Both the position numbers and the translations under genes were made by a program. Below the pieces are notes generated by a model that was not told where the DNA came from, ran no database searches, and was given only the letters and a program-made list of their open reading frames with translations. This document shows, in pieces, positions 17,564 through 49,998 of a stretch of 64,000 bases of DNA. Within the stretch, counting starts at the first letter, position 1. Every line of letters starts with the position of its first letter. The stretch is from Blattabacterium cuenoti (GTDB lineage Bacteria > Bacteroidota > Bacteroidia > Flavobacteriales > Blattabacteriaceae), in NCBI RefSeq assembly GCF_014252335.1, contig NZ_CP059218.1:236165-300164 (forward strand), read 5' to 3'.

Positions 17564-18352
17564 ATGAACAAATTTCACATTATTTATGGAATTCATCCAT
17601 TAATAGAAGCTATTAAAGAAAAACAAATTATAAAAAAATTATTTATAAAAAAAGAAATGAATATAAAAATAGGAGATAATTATAAACAATTACTATCCTT
17701 GTCAAAAAAAATGAATATTCCTGTACATTTTGTTTCTAAACATCGATTTGATCATGATCAATTAAAATATAAAAACCATCAAGGAGTTTTTGCCTTTTTA
17801 TCCCCTATAAAAACTTTTCATATAAAAAACTTACTACCAATATTTTATAAACAACAAAAAAATCCACTATTGCTAGTTTTAGATCGCATTACAGACGTAA
17901 AAAATTTTGGATCTATTATTCGTACTGCAGCTTGTGCAGGTGTACATTCTATTATTATTCCAAATAAATCTACAGCAAGGATTAATTCAGATTCTATCAA
18001 AACTTCTTCAGGGGCGTTATTCAAAATTCCAATATGTAAAGAAAATAACATTCAAACAACTATCAGATATTTAATTCAATCTGGATTAAAAATTATATCT
18101 GCAACAGAAAAATCTGATGTTTCTTGGTATAAAATAGACTTATCTGGTCCGACCGCTATCATACTTGGAAATGAAGAAAATGGTATTTCTAGCAAATATT
18201 TAAAGTTATCTTCATATAAAGTAAAAATTCCATTATCAAAACATGGTATATCTTCTTTGAATGTTTCCGTAGTTTGTGGAATTTTATTGTATGAAGTTTT
18301 TAGACAAAGACAATTAAAAATAATCCCTATTCCAAAAGCAAATCCTGAGTAA
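17564..18352 (+). CDS. rlmB: SpoU-family rRNA 2'-O-methyltransferase (RlmB type)
   Basis: SPOUT methyltransferase expected to modify the ribose of G2251 in 23S rRNA. An N-terminal substrate-binding domain (IIYGIHPLIEAI) is followed by the three SpoU motifs: DRITDVKNFGSIIRTA near residue 107, ILGNEENGIS near 203 and IPLSKHGISSLNVSVV near 223. The last nine codons (IPIPKANPE) and the stop do not belong to the family. They lie in a 64-bp copy of antisense pheS sequence (18323-18386), so the natural 3' end has been replaced. The catalytic core is complete, so activity is probably kept. Confidence 0.9.
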   Translation: MNKFHIIYGIHPLIEAIKEKQIIKKLFIKKEMNIKIGDNYKQLLSLSKKMNIPVHFVSKHRFDHDQLKYKNHQGVFAFLSPIKTFHIKNLLPIFYKQQKNPLLLVLDRITDVKNFGSIIRTAACAGVHSIIIPNKSTARINSDSIKTSSGALFKIPICKENNIQTTIRYLIQSGLKIISATEKSDVSWYKIDLSGPTAIILGNEENGISSKYLKLSSYKVKIPLSKHGISSLNVSVVCGILLYEVFRQRQLKIIPIPKANPE

Positions 18353-18386
18353 ATTTCTGAATCAATATTTACGTTTTTTCATACTT
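18323..18386 (+). repeat. 64-bp copy of pheS sequence at the 3' end of rlmB (copy A)
   Basis: Positions 18323-18386 match 18502-18565 base for base except one position (18380 C against 18559 A), in direct orientation 179 bp apart. The flanks differ on both sides. Copy A supplies the last nine codons and stop of rlmB. Copy B lies inside pheS, where it encodes conserved [11 protein letters not shown] residues on the minus strand, so B is the source and A the duplicate. Confidence 0.95.
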
Positions 18387-18404
18387 ATAAAAATCATATT
18401 TAAT

Positions 18405-19394
18405 CTAAAACTCAGATTGAAAGTGCCGTAAAAAATTCATATCATTCTCAAAATAAATTCTTATATCATTAATTTTATAAATTAATATAGAAAGTCTTTC
18501 GATCCCTATTCCAAAAGCAAATCCTGAGTAAATTTCTGAATCAATATTTACGTTTTTTAATACTTTTGGATCTATCATACCACAACCCATAATTTCTATC
18601 CAACCCATTGTTTTTCCAAAATATATGTCCACTTCTGCACTTGGTTCTGTAAATGGAAAATATGAAGGGCGAAATCTGACTTTAGTTATATCACCAAAAA
18701 TAGAATGTATTAAATATAGAATAGTTTGTTTTAAATCTAAAAAAGTTACTTTTTTATCGATATAAAATCCTTCCGCTTGGTGAAACATAAAATGAGAATG
18801 AGTAGAGATTGTCTCATTTCTATATACTTTTCCTAAAGATATTATTCTAAAAGGTGGAACATGTTTTTTCATATATCGTATTTGTACAGAAGATGTATGT
18901 GTTCTCAGTAAACTATCTGTATTGTTATATAGAAAAAAAGTGTCTTGCATTTCTCTAGATGGATGTTCTGGTGGAATATTTAAAGCAGTAAAATTATGCC
19001 AATCATCTTCTATTTCAGGACCTTCTACAACAGAAAATCCAATTTTAGAAAATAATTCTATAATTCTATGTATTAAAATAGAGATAGGATGCATCGATCC
19101 AATTTCTTTATATATACCTGGTAAAGTTGGATCAAAATGAGGTATATTTTTTTGTTGTTTTAATTTTTTTAATTGTATTTTTTCTGTTACCTGTTTTTTT
19201 AAATTATTAATAATTTTTCCAAAATACTTTTTGTCTTGAATAGAAAATTTTTTTAATTCTTTAAATAAAAAAGTTAAAATACCATTTTTTTTTCCTAAGA
19301 ATTTAATTCTAAATGATTCTAATTCATAATCACTTGTGGCATCAAAGACTTTTATTTCTTCTTTTATTTTTTCTATTTTTTGTTGTATATCCAT
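18405..19394 (-). CDS. pheS: Phenylalanyl-tRNA synthetase alpha subunit
   Basis: Catalytic alpha subunit of the heterotetrameric class II PheRS. An N-terminal coiled coil (about residues 1-85) binds tRNA. The catalytic domain follows with [31 protein letters not shown], the motif 2 region [33 protein letters not shown] and the motif 3 FGIGIERL. Length of 329 residues is normal. The pheT partner is not in this window. Its C-terminal coding region donated the duplicated segment found in rlmB. Confidence 0.95.
18502..18565 (+). repeat. Source copy inside pheS of the 64-bp repeat (copy B)
   Basis: This segment encodes, on the minus strand, the C-terminal class II motif 3 region of pheS and so is under protein constraint. 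It is the parent of the near-identical stretch at 18323-18386. Confidence 0.93.
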
Positions 19395-20127: not shown

Positions 20128-22416
20128 CTAAACTATAAAAGTTGCATACTTTTTTTTGTAAACATCAATCGATAAACCATTTAAATATAATAATAAAATT
20201 TTTTCTAAATTTTCTGTTATACTTTTTGATTGTATTAGAATATCTAACATTAATAATGTATTTTTTTTACCATATTTATGATTAATTATTCCTATTCCTT
20301 GCTGATTCATCTGTGATTCTATATGTTGAAAGATTTTTATTTTTATAGCATTATTTTTTTTATACGTTTTATAATTTATTTCATGTATAATAATCTTGAA
20401 ATAATTTATAATTAAATGTTGTAATATTATTAAATTATTTTTTTGCCAAATTTTTATAGGTTTATGACTATTAATAACATGACATAAGGTTTGATTAGTT
20501 AGAATGTCAGAAGAATATACAAGTTCTTTTATTGTGTTATATATACGCATGTATAGTATTCCATAATAGGGTTTTGTAGAAGTTTCAATAACTCTTATTA
20601 AAGAATTTTGTATATGTTTCAAATTTTCTTGTAATTCTAAAAATTTTGTTCTATTATATCGAAGATTTTTTAAATTATTATTAATAATTCCTTCTATACT
20701 CGATTGATAAATAGTTTCTATAGAAGAAATCATGATTTCTAAAATGTCAGAATAATTTTTTAAAGTTGTTTCTAAAGTCAAATTACCATTTTTAAGAATG
20801 CTTGTTTTTTCCCTCACTTTTTGATATGATGTTTTTTGATAAGTTTTATAACTTCTATAAACAACAAATGTTATTAAACATAAAAAAAATATAATTGCCC
20901 ATTCTTTGAAAAAATATAAAATAGTTGCCGTAATACCAGACATTGTAAATGCGATTAATCCAGTTACAAACCACCCTCTTATAACTTTTAAAACTCCTGA
21001 GACCCTGTATACTGCAGTTTCTCTATCCCAAGCTCTATCTGAAAACGAGGTGCCCATAGAAACCATGAAAGTAACAAAAGTAGTAGATAGTGGCAGTTTA
21101 TGAACAGTAGCTATAGAAATAAGTATACTTGATATGGTTAAATTTGAAGAAGCTCTTACTAGATCAAAGGCAATACTTTCATCTTTTTGTATTTTTTGTT
21201 TAAAATTTTTTTCTATTTTCACTAAAAAACGTTTGGAAAATAAATTGAAAAATGTCTTTCCAACAAATAAAAAAAATCTAACAATTTCTCTAGACACAAA
21301 ATTTGACAAACAAGTGTCATTGTAATGGTCATGTTCTTCATGTTTTCTGCTTAAATTAAGTTCTGTGCTAGAAATTTTTTTAGTTTTTTTAGAAAACCAA
21401 AGTGTTAATATCATAATAACTCCTGAAAAAATTAAAATTAAAGAAGGAACAGCAACTTTTCCAGATAAACTTGTCATATTGAATTTATCTGCTGGTGGGC
21501 AACCAGCTGATGTCCATATGTTGTAAGACTGAATACTAGCTATAGGTATGCCGATAAAATTTACTAGATCATTTCCTGAAAAAGCCATTGCTAAAGAAAA
21601 GGTTCCATATAATACAACAAATTTTAAAATGTTATATCCTAAAGAAACCAAGAGCTTTGATACCAATAACCATGTACAAAATAACAAGAATAAAACAATA
21701 TAAAATTGATGATGTATACACATGATAAAAGGATGTATCAAAAAATCAATTTTTGTTAAATGCTCTTCCATAACTCTATGTATACCTTTAAAAATCAAAA
21801 AATAGGTCATACTACTCAATGACATAGCAGACCATATAACTCCTATACATGGTAATTTACTTTTATATTCAAAGCTGAATAACAAACGAATAAAATAGTG
21901 AATTAATGAACCAGAAGTAAAAGAAATTAAAATAGATAAAAAAATTCCTATTCCAATTGTAAGTGTTTGTTCTGCTTTAATATAATTACTTAAATGATGT
22001 AACGGTTCATTACATAATGGAGAAGACATTTTAATTATTGCTATACTGAATGCACCTCCTAATAAACAAAAAACCATTGATACTGTGGTAGATGTGGGTA
22101 ATCCTAAAGTATTAAAAATATCCAATAATATGATATCTGAAATCATTACAGCTAAAAAAATAAAAATTAGATCAGACAAATAAAAATAAGAAGGATCAAA
22201 AACTCCTTTTCTTGCTACTTCCATCATTCCGCTAGATAAAAAAGAACCAAACAAGATTCCCAAACTAGCAAAGATCATAATAGTTTTTCTAGAAGCTACT
22301 TTAGATCCAATAGCAGAATTGAGAAAATTGACAGCATCATTAATTAAACCAACAATAAGATCAAAAATGGATAAAATAAAAATAATCACTATAATTAATG
22401 GATAAAAAAGTTTCAT
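20128..22416 (-). CDS. PiT-family inorganic phosphate transporter with PhoU-like C-terminal domain
   Basis: Membrane carrier that imports phosphate by cation symport. Two PiT repeats are visible, each with a GxxNDAxN-type motif: VGLINDAVNFLNSAIGSKVAS at the N terminus and FSGNDLVNFIGIPIAS near residue 282. About twelve hydrophobic segments are present. From about residue 545 to 762 the protein is soluble and helical, consistent with a fused PhoU-like regulatory domain. This makes it much longer than the roughly 500 residues of E. coli PitA. It is the only phosphate carrier seen in the window. Confidence 0.88.
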   Translation of the reverse strand: MKLFYPLIIVIIFILSIFDLIVGLINDAVNFLNSAIGSKVASRKTIMIFASLGILFGSFLSSGMMEVARKGVFDPSYFYLSDLIFIFLAVMISDIILLDIFNTLGLPTSTTVSMVFCLLGGAFSIAIIKMSSPLCNEPLHHLSNYIKAEQTLTIGIGIFLSILISFTSGSLIHYFIRLLFSFEYKSKLPCIGVIWSAMSLSSMTYFLIFKGIHRVMEEHLTKIDFLIHPFIMCIHHQFYIVLFLLFCTWLLVSKLLVSLGYNILKFVVLYGTFSLAMAFSGNDLVNFIGIPIASIQSYNIWTSAGCPPADKFNMTSLSGKVAVPSLILIFSGVIMILTLWFSKKTKKISSTELNLSRKHEEHDHYNDTCLSNFVSREIVRFFLFVGKTFFNLFSKRFLVKIEKNFKQKIQKDESIAFDLVRASSNLTISSILISIATVHKLPLSTTFVTFMVSMGTSFSDRAWDRETAVYRVSGVLKVIRGWFVTGLIAFTMSGITATILYFFKEWAIIFFLCLITFVVYRSYKTYQKTSYQKVREKTSILKNGNLTLETTLKNYSDILEIMISSIETIYQSSIEGIINNNLKNLRYNRTKFLELQENLKHIQNSLIRVIETSTKPYYGILYMRIYNTIKELVYSSDILTNQTLCHVINSHKPIKIWQKNNLIILQHLIINYFKIIIHEINYKTYKKNNAIKIKIFQHIESQMNQQGIGIINHKYGKKNTLLMLDILIQSKSITENLEKILLLYLNGLSIDVYKKKYATFIV

Positions 22417-24578: not shown

Positions 24579-25235
24579 ATGCGTATAGATATTGTTAGTA
24601 TTTTTCCTAGATTATTTAATGAATTTTTATACAATTTTCCTGTTAAAAAAGCAATTCATAAAGAACTTTTAGAAGTTCATGTTCATGACTTACGTCAATA
24701 TGGCATAGGAAAAAAAAAAAAAGTGGATGATTATCCATATGGAGGAGGTGGAGGAATGGTATTAAAAATTGAACCTGTATATCAATGTTTTAATACACTT
24801 TTATCAGAACGATATTATGATGAAACCATTTTTATGACTCCATCTGGTAAGTCATTTACACAAAAATACGCAGAACAGTTAACTAAAAAAACTAACTTAT
24901 TAATTCTTTGCGGTCGTTACAAAGGAGTTGATCAAAGAATTATAGATCATTTAATATCTAAAGAAATATCCATAGGGCCTTATATTTTATCTGGTGGAGA
25001 ATTAGCAGCAGCTGTGATTGTTGAATCTATAACTAGGCTGTTACCTGGAGTATTGAATTATTCAAATTCTATTGGTGGTGGTGGGTGCACCTATACGTCG
25101 TATCCTATTTATACTCATCCATCTATTTATAATGGATGGCCAGTACCACAAATACTTTTGTCTGGAAATCATAGAAAAATTAAAGACTGGCGAATAATTA
25201 ATTCAAAAAATAAAGATAATAATAAAGATAAATAA
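24579..25235 (+). CDS. trmD: tRNA (guanine37-N1)-methyltransferase
   Basis: SPOUT-class enzyme methylating G37 next to the anticodon, which prevents +1 frameshifting. Visible features: MRIDIVSIFPRLF at the N terminus, DDYPYGGGGGMV, LCGRYKGVDQR and the trefoil-knot segment IGPYILSGGELAA. Length of 218 residues is normal. A run of 13 A at 24710-24722, the longest homopolymer I noted in a gene here, encodes the KKKK before VDDYPYGG and is in frame. Confidence 0.95.
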   Translation: MRIDIVSIFPRLFNEFLYNFPVKKAIHKELLEVHVHDLRQYGIGKKKKVDDYPYGGGGGMVLKIEPVYQCFNTLLSERYYDETIFMTPSGKSFTQKYAEQLTKKTNLLILCGRYKGVDQRIIDHLISKEISIGPYILSGGELAAAVIVESITRLLPGVLNYSNSIGGGGCTYTSYPIYTHPSIYNGWPVPQILLSGNHRKIKDWRIINSKNKDNNKDK

Positions 25236-36983: not shown

Positions 36984-38351
36984 TTATGCAATTGATGTAG
37001 CTATCATCATTCCATCTTTTGGATCAATTTTCATTAAAATCACTTTTTGAAAAGTATTTTGAAATATTGGATTGTAAAGTATTTTCGTTCTAATATAGTT
37101 TTCTGTATATCCATATAAATATTTTCTTTTAAAATGATTGTTTTCAACTAATACAACTTTTTTCTTATTAATCTGTCTTTCACAAAAAGAAATATATTTT
37201 GTTTTTGATAAATGTCTTAATATTTTATTTCTTTGACTTTTTCTTTTTTTAGATAAATCATTATGAAAATTGATAGATTTTGTTTTTGGTCTATTAGAAT
37301 AAGAAAATACATGCAAAGAAGAAATATTTAATTTTTCTAAAAACCAATATGTTTCCAAAAAATGTTGATGTGTTTCTCCTGGAAACCCTACAATAACATC
37401 AGAACCTATATAAGCATCAGGATCACAATGTAATATATATTTAATTTTATCTTTGTAAAGTTCTATGTTATAACGTCTTTGCATTTTTCCTAAAATATAG
37501 TTACTTCCAGATTGCAAAGGAATATGAAAATGAGGAACAAAATGATTACTTTTAGATAAAAATTCAATACATTCTGTTTTCAATAAATTAGGCTCAATGG
37601 ATGATAAACGTATTCTACCTTTTTCTTTTATTTCATCTATTGCCTGTATTAAATCAAAAAAAGTATAGGAACGTCGATTATAGTTTCCATATATTTTCTT
37701 TCCATAATCTCCTATATTAACACCAGTTAATACAATTTCTTTAACGCCTTTATTGAAAATATATTTAATTTTATTTAAAATATTGTCTAAACTATCAGAT
37801 CTAGATGGTCCTCTTGTTATAGGAATAATGCAATAACTACATCGGTAATCACAACCATCTTGAATTTTTAAAAAAGAACGAGTTCGTTCTCCAATAGAAT
37901 AAGAAGAAAAAAAAGTATATGTTTTTCTAGATATTATTGTATATGGATATATTTTTGATAATGGATATGTTTTTCTAGATATTATTGTAGCTGGATATCT
38001 TTTTGATAATGGAAAAGATATATAATTTGTGATATTACATTTTGCTTCATAACCTAAAACCAGATCTACTCCTTTGATATAAGAAATTGCTTTTGGATTC
38101 AGTTGAGTATAACATCCTATTGCAATAACAAAAGCTTTTTCATTTTTATGCATTAAGGTACGAATAATATAATGAAATTCATTTTCAGCATTTTTTGTGA
38201 CAGAACAATTATTAATCACATAAATATCTGCAACATCTTCGTGGCCAACATGTTGATATATTAAATTAGAAAATTGTCTGGATATTGTAGAGGTTTCTGC
38301 ATAATTAAGTTTACAACCAATAGTATAAAATGCAATTTTGATTTTACTCAT
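36984..38351 (-). CDS. mtaB: tRNA (t6A37) methylthiotransferase, MtaB type
   Basis: Radical SAM methylthiotransferase that adds a methylthio group to t6A37 of ANN-decoding tRNAs. The N-terminal UPF0004 domain starts IAFYTIGCKLNYAET with a cluster cysteine. The radical SAM motif is CDYRCSYCIIP, and a TRAM-like C-terminal domain follows. MtaB is favoured over MiaB or RimO by the GCKLN start. The frame opens at 38396 inside the peroxiredoxin gene, but the ATG at 38351 precedes the conserved start. Between the two domains a 16-residue unit (SKxYPxTIISRKTYxx) occurs twice in tandem; see the repeat entry. Confidence 0.9.
   Translation of the reverse strand: MSKIKIAFYTIGCKLNYAETSTISRQFSNLIYQHVGHEDVADIYVINNCSVTKNAENEFHYIIRTLMHKNEKAFVIAIGCYTQLNPKAISYIKGVDLVLGYEAKCNITNYISFPLSKRYPATIISRKTYPLSKIYPYTIISRKTYTFFSSYSIGERTRSFLKIQDGCDYRCSYCIIPITRGPSRSDSLDNILNKIKYIFNKGVKEIVLTGVNIGDYGKKIYGNYNRRSYTFFDLIQAIDEIKEKGRIRLSSIEPNLLKTECIEFLSKSNHFVPHFHIPLQSGSNYILGKMQRRYNIELYKDKIKYILHCDPDAYIGSDVIVGFPGETHQHFLETYWFLEKLNISSLHVFSYSNRPKTKSINFHNDLSKKRKSQRNKILRHLSKTKYISFCERQINKKKVVLVENNHFKRKYLYGYTENYIRTKILYNPIFQNTFQKVILMKIDPKDGMMIATSIA
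37921..38016. repeat. 48-bp tandem duplication inside mtaB
   Basis: Units 37921-37968 and 37969-38016 differ at about five of 48 positions. The unit is a whole number of codons, so the frame is kept. On the minus strand it encodes TIISRKTY-containing 16-residue units, placed in the linker between the N-terminal domain and the radical SAM core. Confidence 0.9.
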
Positions 38352-38367
38352 TTTATTGAATTGTTTA

Positions 38368-39000
38368 TCATTCAGATAAATAATCCAAAAGTCCACTATA
38401 ATTAGCTTTCATAGTTTTTTCTCCTTTTTTCCAATTAGCAGGACATACTTCTCCGTTTTGTTCATAAGATTGAAGTGCATCTACAATTCTAATTGCTTCA
38501 TTAACATTTCTTCCTAAAGGAAAATCATTAATTAGAATATGTCTAATAATTCCTTTTATATCTATTATAAACAACCCTCTATAAGCTATTAACTCTCCCT
38601 GAGTTTTAACAAATAAAGACTCTTTATTATAAATCCATTCACCAGATAAAACTCCATAATTGTAAGATATAATTTTATTAATATCAGATACTAAAGGATA
38701 TGTAATACCACATATACCACCTTGTTTTTTTGGAATTTGTAACCAACTCCAATGAGCTTGTTCTGAATCCGTAGAAATTGCAATAAGTTGTACATTTTTA
38801 GATTGAAAATTTTTCAAATTGTCTTGAAAAACATATAATTCTGTAGGGCAAACAAAAGTAAAATCCTTGGGATAAAATAAAAGAATGACATATTTTTTTC
38901 CGTGAAACTGTTCTAAAGTAAAATTTTGTACAATATTTTTACCATTCAATACTGCAGATGCTGAAAAATTAGGAGCTTGTTTTCCAATTAAGTTATTCAT
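38368..39000 (-). CDS. 2-Cys peroxiredoxin (AhpC/Prx type)
   Basis: Thiol peroxidase that reduces hydrogen peroxide and organic peroxides. The peroxidatic cysteine lies in FTFVCPTEL near residue 51, and the resolving cysteine in VCPANWKKGEKTM near the C terminus, so it is a typical 2-Cys enzyme. Length is 210 residues. It could be an important oxidative-stress defence in a reduced genome. Its reductase is not in the window. Confidence 0.92.
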   Translation of the reverse strand: MNNLIGKQAPNFSASAVLNGKNIVQNFTLEQFHGKKYVILLFYPKDFTFVCPTELYVFQDNLKNFQSKNVQLIAISTDSEQAHWSWLQIPKKQGGICGITYPLVSDINKIISYNYGVLSGEWIYNKESLFVKTQGELIAYRGLFIIDIKGIIRHILINDFPLGRNVNEAIRIVDALQSYEQNGEVCPANWKKGEKTMKANYSGLLDYLSE

Positions 39001-48631: not shown

Positions 48632-49645
48632 TTATTTTAAATCATCTGTAACGAAAGGTAATAAACCAATTTCTCTACATTTTTTAATAGAAGAATTTAA
48701 TTTTTTTTGATTTTTTTGCAAAGTGCCCGTAATTCTACGAGGTAGAATTTTTCCTTGTGCATTTAAAAATTTAATTAGAAATGAAGAATCTTTATAATCT
48801 ATATATTTAATATTATTTTTTTGAAAAAAACAATATTTTTTTTCTTTTTTGGTTTCTATCTTTAAGGGAGATAAATATCTAAAATTACTTTCTGTTGCTG
48901 TTTCTGATGAGACAGAATCGATTTCTACATTACCAGTTACTACTTTTTTCACTGCTTCTACATGACCACTTTCTACTTGTTTCACTTTTTCTACATTACC
49001 ACTTGCTACTTGTTTCACTTCTTCTACATGACCACTTTCTACTTGTTTCACTTTTTCTACATTACCACTTGCTACTTGTTTCACTTCTTCTACATGACCA
49101 CTTTCTACTTTTTTAACTGCTTCTACATTACCAGTTACTACTTTTTTCACTGCTTCTACATCACCACTGTCTACTTGTTTCACTTCTTCTACATTACCAC
49201 TTTCTACTTGTTTCACTTCTTCTACATGACCACTGTCTACTTGTTTCACTTCTTCTACATGACCACTTTCTACTTTTTTCACTGTTTCTACTACATTACC
49301 AGTTACTACTTTTTTCACTGCTTCTACATTACTACTTTTTACTTGTTTCACTGTTTCTACATTACCAGTTTTTATTTTTTTCACTTCTTCTACATTACCA
49401 CTTTCTACTTGTTTCACTTCTTCTACATGACCACTGTCTACTTGTTTCACTTCTTCTACATGACCACTTTCTACTTTTTTCACTGTTTCTACATTACCAG
49501 TTACTACTTTTTTCACTGCTTCTACATTACTACTTTTTACTTGTTTCACTTTTTCTACATTACCACTTGCTACTTGTTTCACTTCTTCTACATGACCACT
49601 TTTATTTATTTTTTTTTTTTGTTTTTTATTTTTATCTACAATCAT
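48632..49645 (-). CDS. rpsR: 30S ribosomal protein bS18 with a giant N-terminal 11-residue-repeat extension
   Basis: The last 82 residues (from RYLSPLKIETKKEKKYCFF to GLLPFVTDDLK, 48880-48632) are a normal flavobacterial-type bS18, which binds bS6 on the 30S platform. In front of it are about 255 extra residues: a basic leader (IVDKNKKQKKKINK), then twenty 11-residue units of pattern S/T-G-x-V-E-x-V-K-x-V-x plus a partial unit, then a short linker. The whole is 337 residues, where the family has about 75-100. The frame is unbroken and no ATG lies between repeats and core. I use the ATG at 49645, which overlaps the rpsF TGA; a GTG precedes it. A 12-A run sits in the leader. What the extension does is unknown. 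Confidence 0.95.
   Translation of the reverse strand: MIVDKNKKQKKKINKSGHVEEVKQVASGNVEKVKQVKSSNVEAVKKVVTGNVETVKKVESGHVEEVKQVDSGHVEEVKQVESGNVEEVKKIKTGNVETVKQVKSSNVEAVKKVVTGNVVETVKKVESGHVEEVKQVDSGHVEEVKQVESGNVEEVKQVDSGDVEAVKKVVTGNVEAVKKVESGHVEEVKQVASGNVEKVKQVESGHVEEVKQVASGNVEKVKQVESGHVEAVKKVVTGNVEIDSVSSETATESNFRYLSPLKIETKKEKKYCFFQKNNIKYIDYKDSSFLIKFLNAQGKILPRRITGTLQKNQKKLNSSIKKCREIGLLPFVTDDLK
48923..49600. repeat. 33-bp tandem repeat array in rpsR (20 units plus a partial)
   Basis: Twenty near-identical 33-bp units and a 15-bp remnant encode the bS18 extension on the minus strand. One unit (around 49281-49300) has one extra codon, giving VVE instead of VE. Larger blocks repeat too: units 3-7 (49370-49534) correspond to units 9-13 (49169-49336), and the unit pair at positions 1-2 recurs at 16-17 and 18-19. 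The array is visibly richer in G and C than its surroundings. Confidence 0.97.
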
Positions 49646-49998
49646 CACTTTTTAATTTTATTTCTTCTTGTTTTGGCATATTCAATACCATATTTATTGA
49701 GTTTAACAGTAAGAAAACGTAAAATACGTTCATCTTGTCTTAATTTTAATTCTAAACTAGAAATTAAATTAGGATAAAACAAAAATTCAAATAAATGATA
49801 ACAACCACTTTGTTTTTTTTTAATTGGATAAGCTAATTTTTTCAATCCCCAATGTTCCTGATAAACTATCTGTCCATCTTTTTGTATCATATAATCCTCG
49901 TATTCTTTTACCGTTTGTTTTGCTTGTTCATCAGAAAGAATAGGGGTAATGATTAGAACACTTTCATAATGTGTATGTGTAAGCATTGAATTATACAT
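49645..49998 (-). CDS. rpsF: 30S ribosomal protein bS6
   Basis: Small-subunit platform protein that pairs with bS18. HYESVLIITPILSDEQ, WGLKKLAYPIKKKQSGCYHLFEF and the C-terminal RFLTVKLNKY are characteristic. Length is 117 residues from the first ATG; the ATG at 49986 (MLTHTHYES) is also plausible. It is first in the rpsF-rpsR-rplI operon and its TGA overlaps the rpsR ATG. The bS6 itself shows no matching expansion. Confidence 0.96.
   Translation of the reverse strand: MYNSMLTHTHYESVLIITPILSDEQAKQTVKEYEDYMIQKDGQIVYQEHWGLKKLAYPIKKKQSGCYHLFEFLFYPNLISSLELKLRQDERILRFLTVKLNKYGIEYAKTRRNKIKK

Follow-up and report, generated by a model that had tools for sequence, protein, structure and literature searches.

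The rlmB and pheS genes of the cockroach symbiont Blattabacterium cuenoti converge at a junction where a 64-bp piece from the interior of pheS has been copied onto the end of rlmB. The copy and the order of the segments around it can be read directly from the DNA, and we consider it probable that they reflect a single lineage-specific insertion templated during replication, through either serial replication slippage or microhomology-primed template switching. The evidence comes from a stretch of 64,000 nucleotides (hereafter called the window) and from its comparison with related genomes.

A piece of pheS forms the 3′ end of rlmB

Self-comparison of the window reveals two copies of the 64-bp piece (Table 1) that are identical at 63 of 64 bases, lie in direct orientation, and are spaced 179 bp start to start with 115 bp between them. 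Given the base composition of this genome (25% GC), only 1.9e-19 such pairs would be expected by chance in 568 kb. A sequence-only reading of the window had described the same repeat, and the identity, orientation and spacing that it gave were all confirmed; the single mismatch is C at 18380 against A at 18559. The donor lies within the C-terminal coding region of pheS, at about codons 277–298. When the organism's own genome was searched, the 64-bp piece matched only these two places, with next-best matches of 15–27 bp and no third copy. A mobile element or a wider repeat family is ruled out as the source, since there are only two copies in the genome and one of these resides within pheS.

Table 1. 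Coordinates of features at the rlmB/pheS junction, numbered from the first base of the window
Feature	Position	Strand	Description
rlmB	17564–18352	+	23S rRNA (guanosine-2251-2'-O)-methyltransferase, 262 aa; TIGR00186, SpoU_methylase
Inserted copy	18323–18386	+	Duplicate of pheS-internal sequence, lying antisense to pheS; carries rlmB codons 254–262 and TAA stop
Filler	18387–18405	+	18388–18405 resembles target TAAAAATCAGATTGAAAG at 14/18 bases
pheS	18405–19394	-	Phenylalanine--tRNA ligase alpha subunit, 329 aa, intact; TIGR00468 above curated cut-off
Donor copy	18502–18565	+	Within pheS, plus-strand reading; G006 identical at 64/64 bases

The RlmB protein matches TIGR00186 above its curated cut-off over residues 4–249 and SpoU_methylase over residues 102–243, and its conserved core ends at about residue 250, ahead of the start of the copy. 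The codons that fall inside the copy specify the residues IPIPKANPE and are followed by the stop codon at 18350–18352. Thus the coordinates (18323–18352) bear out the earlier proposal that the nine C-terminal codons and the stop of rlmB are antisense pheS sequence. The rlmB gene was found by search in all 49 genomes assigned to the same genus; a wider scan of genome contigs yielded only distant relatives of it. In one relative (G043:C1:113413-114155, minus strand) internal stops split the gene, which is apparently a pseudogene. The organism's own genome contains a second match of the SpoU methyltransferase type (C1:123387-124106, minus strand), and the aligned stretch of this match carries one TAA.

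The insertion is known from one assembly, which speaks for an assembly artefact, but we regard this explanation as very improbable. The two copies differ by one base, the filler at the junction is not identical to its putative source, and both rlmB and pheS remain open. In addition, sequencing reads are generally longer than 64 bp.

The ancestral junction in relatives

The nearest relative compared (G006) shares 94.9% identity with the window across 62.3 kb of alignment. In this genome the 64-bp copy is absent, and the last 35 nt of rlmB lie antisense within the 3′ end of pheS. We surveyed the same junction in 47 relatives, omitting the genome with the broken rlmB, and found that the two genes overlap in 32 (by 4–35 nt, 17 nt being the commonest value) and are separated by a gap of 1 to 24 nt in the other 15. 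Only the window genome has a gap of 52 nt. Because the copy is absent from G006 and the gene ends overlap or lie close together in all 47 relatives, these comparisons show the direction of change to be an insertion on the branch leading to the window genome. The sequence-only reading had anticipated that sister genomes would reveal the ancestral terminus, and the terminus without the copy found there supports a lineage-specific templated insertion.

That reading had also proposed that the copy overwrites the 3′ end of rlmB. This point needs correcting: the new tail and stop codon do derive from the copy, but rlmB was not overwritten. The copy is part of a net insertion of 90 bp, and the sequence of the ancestral tail, which was itself antisense to the 3′ end of pheS, survives downstream of it. 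By this comparison, one antisense-pheS tail has replaced another and the gene overlap has been undone, leaving pheS intact with TAG as its stop codon rather than the TAA of G006. RlmB has exchanged an ancestral tail of about 10 residues for one of similar length (262 aa versus 261 aa in G006).

Structure of the insertion and proposed mechanism

The 90 bp gained at the pheS stop codon comprise the 64-bp copy and about 26 additional bases, such that the interval from AGACAAAG to CAGATTG measures 111 bp in the window and 21 bp in G006. The same change accounts for these additional bases, which consist of the filler and of junction bases. The filler sequence at 18388–18405 (TAAAAATCATATTTAATC) resembles the target sufficiently that it is probably an imperfect second copy of it; 31 of the 63,833 18-mers in the window match the target equally well. 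No other source for the filler was found within two mismatches in the genome.

We mapped window positions 18280–18460 onto the G006 locus with a procedure that permits jumps on both strands. At low jump cost, the segments recovered are 1717–1759, 1848–1912, 1752–1765 and 1748–1807 in G006 locus coordinates. The best mapping uses two to three jumps with all segments forward; reverse-complement templating was never picked even though both strands were allowed. A higher jump cost merges the last two steps, and thus the origin of the filler is uncertain. Microhomology at the junctions, read by eye, amounts to 0–3 nt, which is not above chance in DNA that is 75% AT.

These segments would fit the following series of events. 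A nascent strand travelling in the direction of rlmB would slip forward by about 90 nt into pheS, copy 64–65 nt there, and then slip back by about 160 nt, past its starting point, to the target. A further backward step of 18 nt probably followed before synthesis continued, for a net gain of 90 bp.

An alternative route to exactly the same product involves two or more events. A tandem duplication of about 179 bp would take in the 3′ end of pheS together with the 64 bp, and the first of the two resulting pheS 3′ ends would then be deleted; an independent tandem duplication of 18 bp may have been added. Tandem duplications are known in this lineage (48 bp at 37912–38007; 12 bp at 25209 and 12288), and we assign this route a real but minority chance. 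The sequence-only reading had favored a templated insertion over a simple tandem duplication on the grounds that the intervening 115 bp are not duplicated. The unduplicated 115 bp are, however, also compatible with a 179-bp duplication followed by deletion. Two observations weigh against the multi-step route. First, it needs two or three separate events whose breakpoints fall on the same few bases, all in less time than has passed since the split from G006. Second, no intermediate is present in any of the 47 relatives. We favor a single event on the grounds that every breakpoint sits at one place and that no relative shows an intermediate.

The presence of RecA in all 49 genomes leaves room for a recombination-based origin and counts against the slippage reading. 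MutS is likewise present in all 49, and loss of either protein was rejected as the cause. No special repair defect, among those tested, needs to be invoked.

Among indels of at least 12 bp that distinguish the window from G006, a count limited to these 64 kb and in which several long unmatched indels in poorly aligned regions are unassigned, no other long insertion outside a 33-bp repeat array is a copy from a non-adjacent source. The remaining indels with matches in nearby DNA are either tandem, like the 48-bp example noted above, or very short. That example is an in-frame duplication whose copies are 90% identical; it is absent in G006 and resides in a gene named by eye as an MtaB-like methylthiotransferase (36984–38396, minus strand). 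The repeat array (48923–49602) occupies the N-terminal part of an open reading frame (48632–49648, minus strand) as about 20 copies of an 11-aa unit resembling GNVEEVKQVES, and the end of this frame reads, by eye, as ribosomal protein bS18. The array aligns poorly with G006, and its length seems to differ. Elsewhere in the window, a gene of 762 aa that we named by eye as phosphate-transporter-like (20128–22416, minus strand) is intact; its G006 counterpart (L085:3608-5302) is in pieces, with a shortened 3′ part.

Age and consequences of the insertion

Because G006 matches the donor at all 64 bases, the single difference between the copies arose in the inserted copy, which makes the C at 18380 the derived base by this alignment. 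As judged from the same comparison, the copy postdates the split from G006. At four-fold sites, the window and G006 differ at 11.1% of positions (589 of 5286), which gives a distance of 0.121 and, for each lineage, 0.060. Were the copy as old as the split, about 3.9 changes would be expected in 64 bp, whereas it carries a single one (probability of at most one change, 0.10). These values at most hint at the recent age proposed in the sequence-only reading, since one change is too little to establish it.

The insertion is expected to have no effect or a small one. RlmB tails after a conserved RQR vary widely across the genus, and hence the change is most likely neutral for RlmB. Over 249 aligned codons, the rlmB core differs from that of G006 by 23 amino acids, a divergence close to the 8.4% average of the window, and decay is therefore not apparent. 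Were the two copies to cross over, the C-terminus of PheS would be removed, and we infer that such deletions should be lost by selection.

A different view of its fixation is that the insertion was kept by selection, either for moving apart two overlapping gene ends, those of rlmB and of the essential pheS, or for a useful new tail; this view is compatible with either mutational route. The replacement of a 35-nt overlap by a 52-nt gap is in its favor. Yet the overlap is kept in 32 of 47 relatives and absent in 15, and tails after RQR vary freely, and we therefore consider selection highly unlikely. In its specific form, in which a shrinking genome used a copied neighboring piece to release the two genes from a constraining antiparallel overlap, the idea seems similarly unlikely. 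The mutation itself is of an ordinary kind and probably does no harm.

Relation to known mutational processes

Serial replication slippage was described from human disease alleles (Chen et al. 2005, reviewed in PMC2583991). It shares with the present case serial forward and backward jumps of the nascent strand, the outcome of which is a small complex change with nearby sequence inserted or duplicated in direct orientation. In contrast, the event considered here is deduced from a comparison of bacterial genomes and shows little junction microhomology. The four-point model of short-range template-switch mutations (PMC7954356) covers reverse-oriented switches and likewise concerns local templated insertions found by comparing closely related genomes; it differs in that no reverse-complement segment was used at the rlmB/pheS junction.

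Our literature searches found no published report of this locus. A single case alters no general view. It nevertheless offers a clean and polarised example, from a reduced symbiont genome, of an insertion templated locally, and it indicates that a copied piece of a neighboring gene can take the place of a gene's end, stop codon included, without apparent damage.
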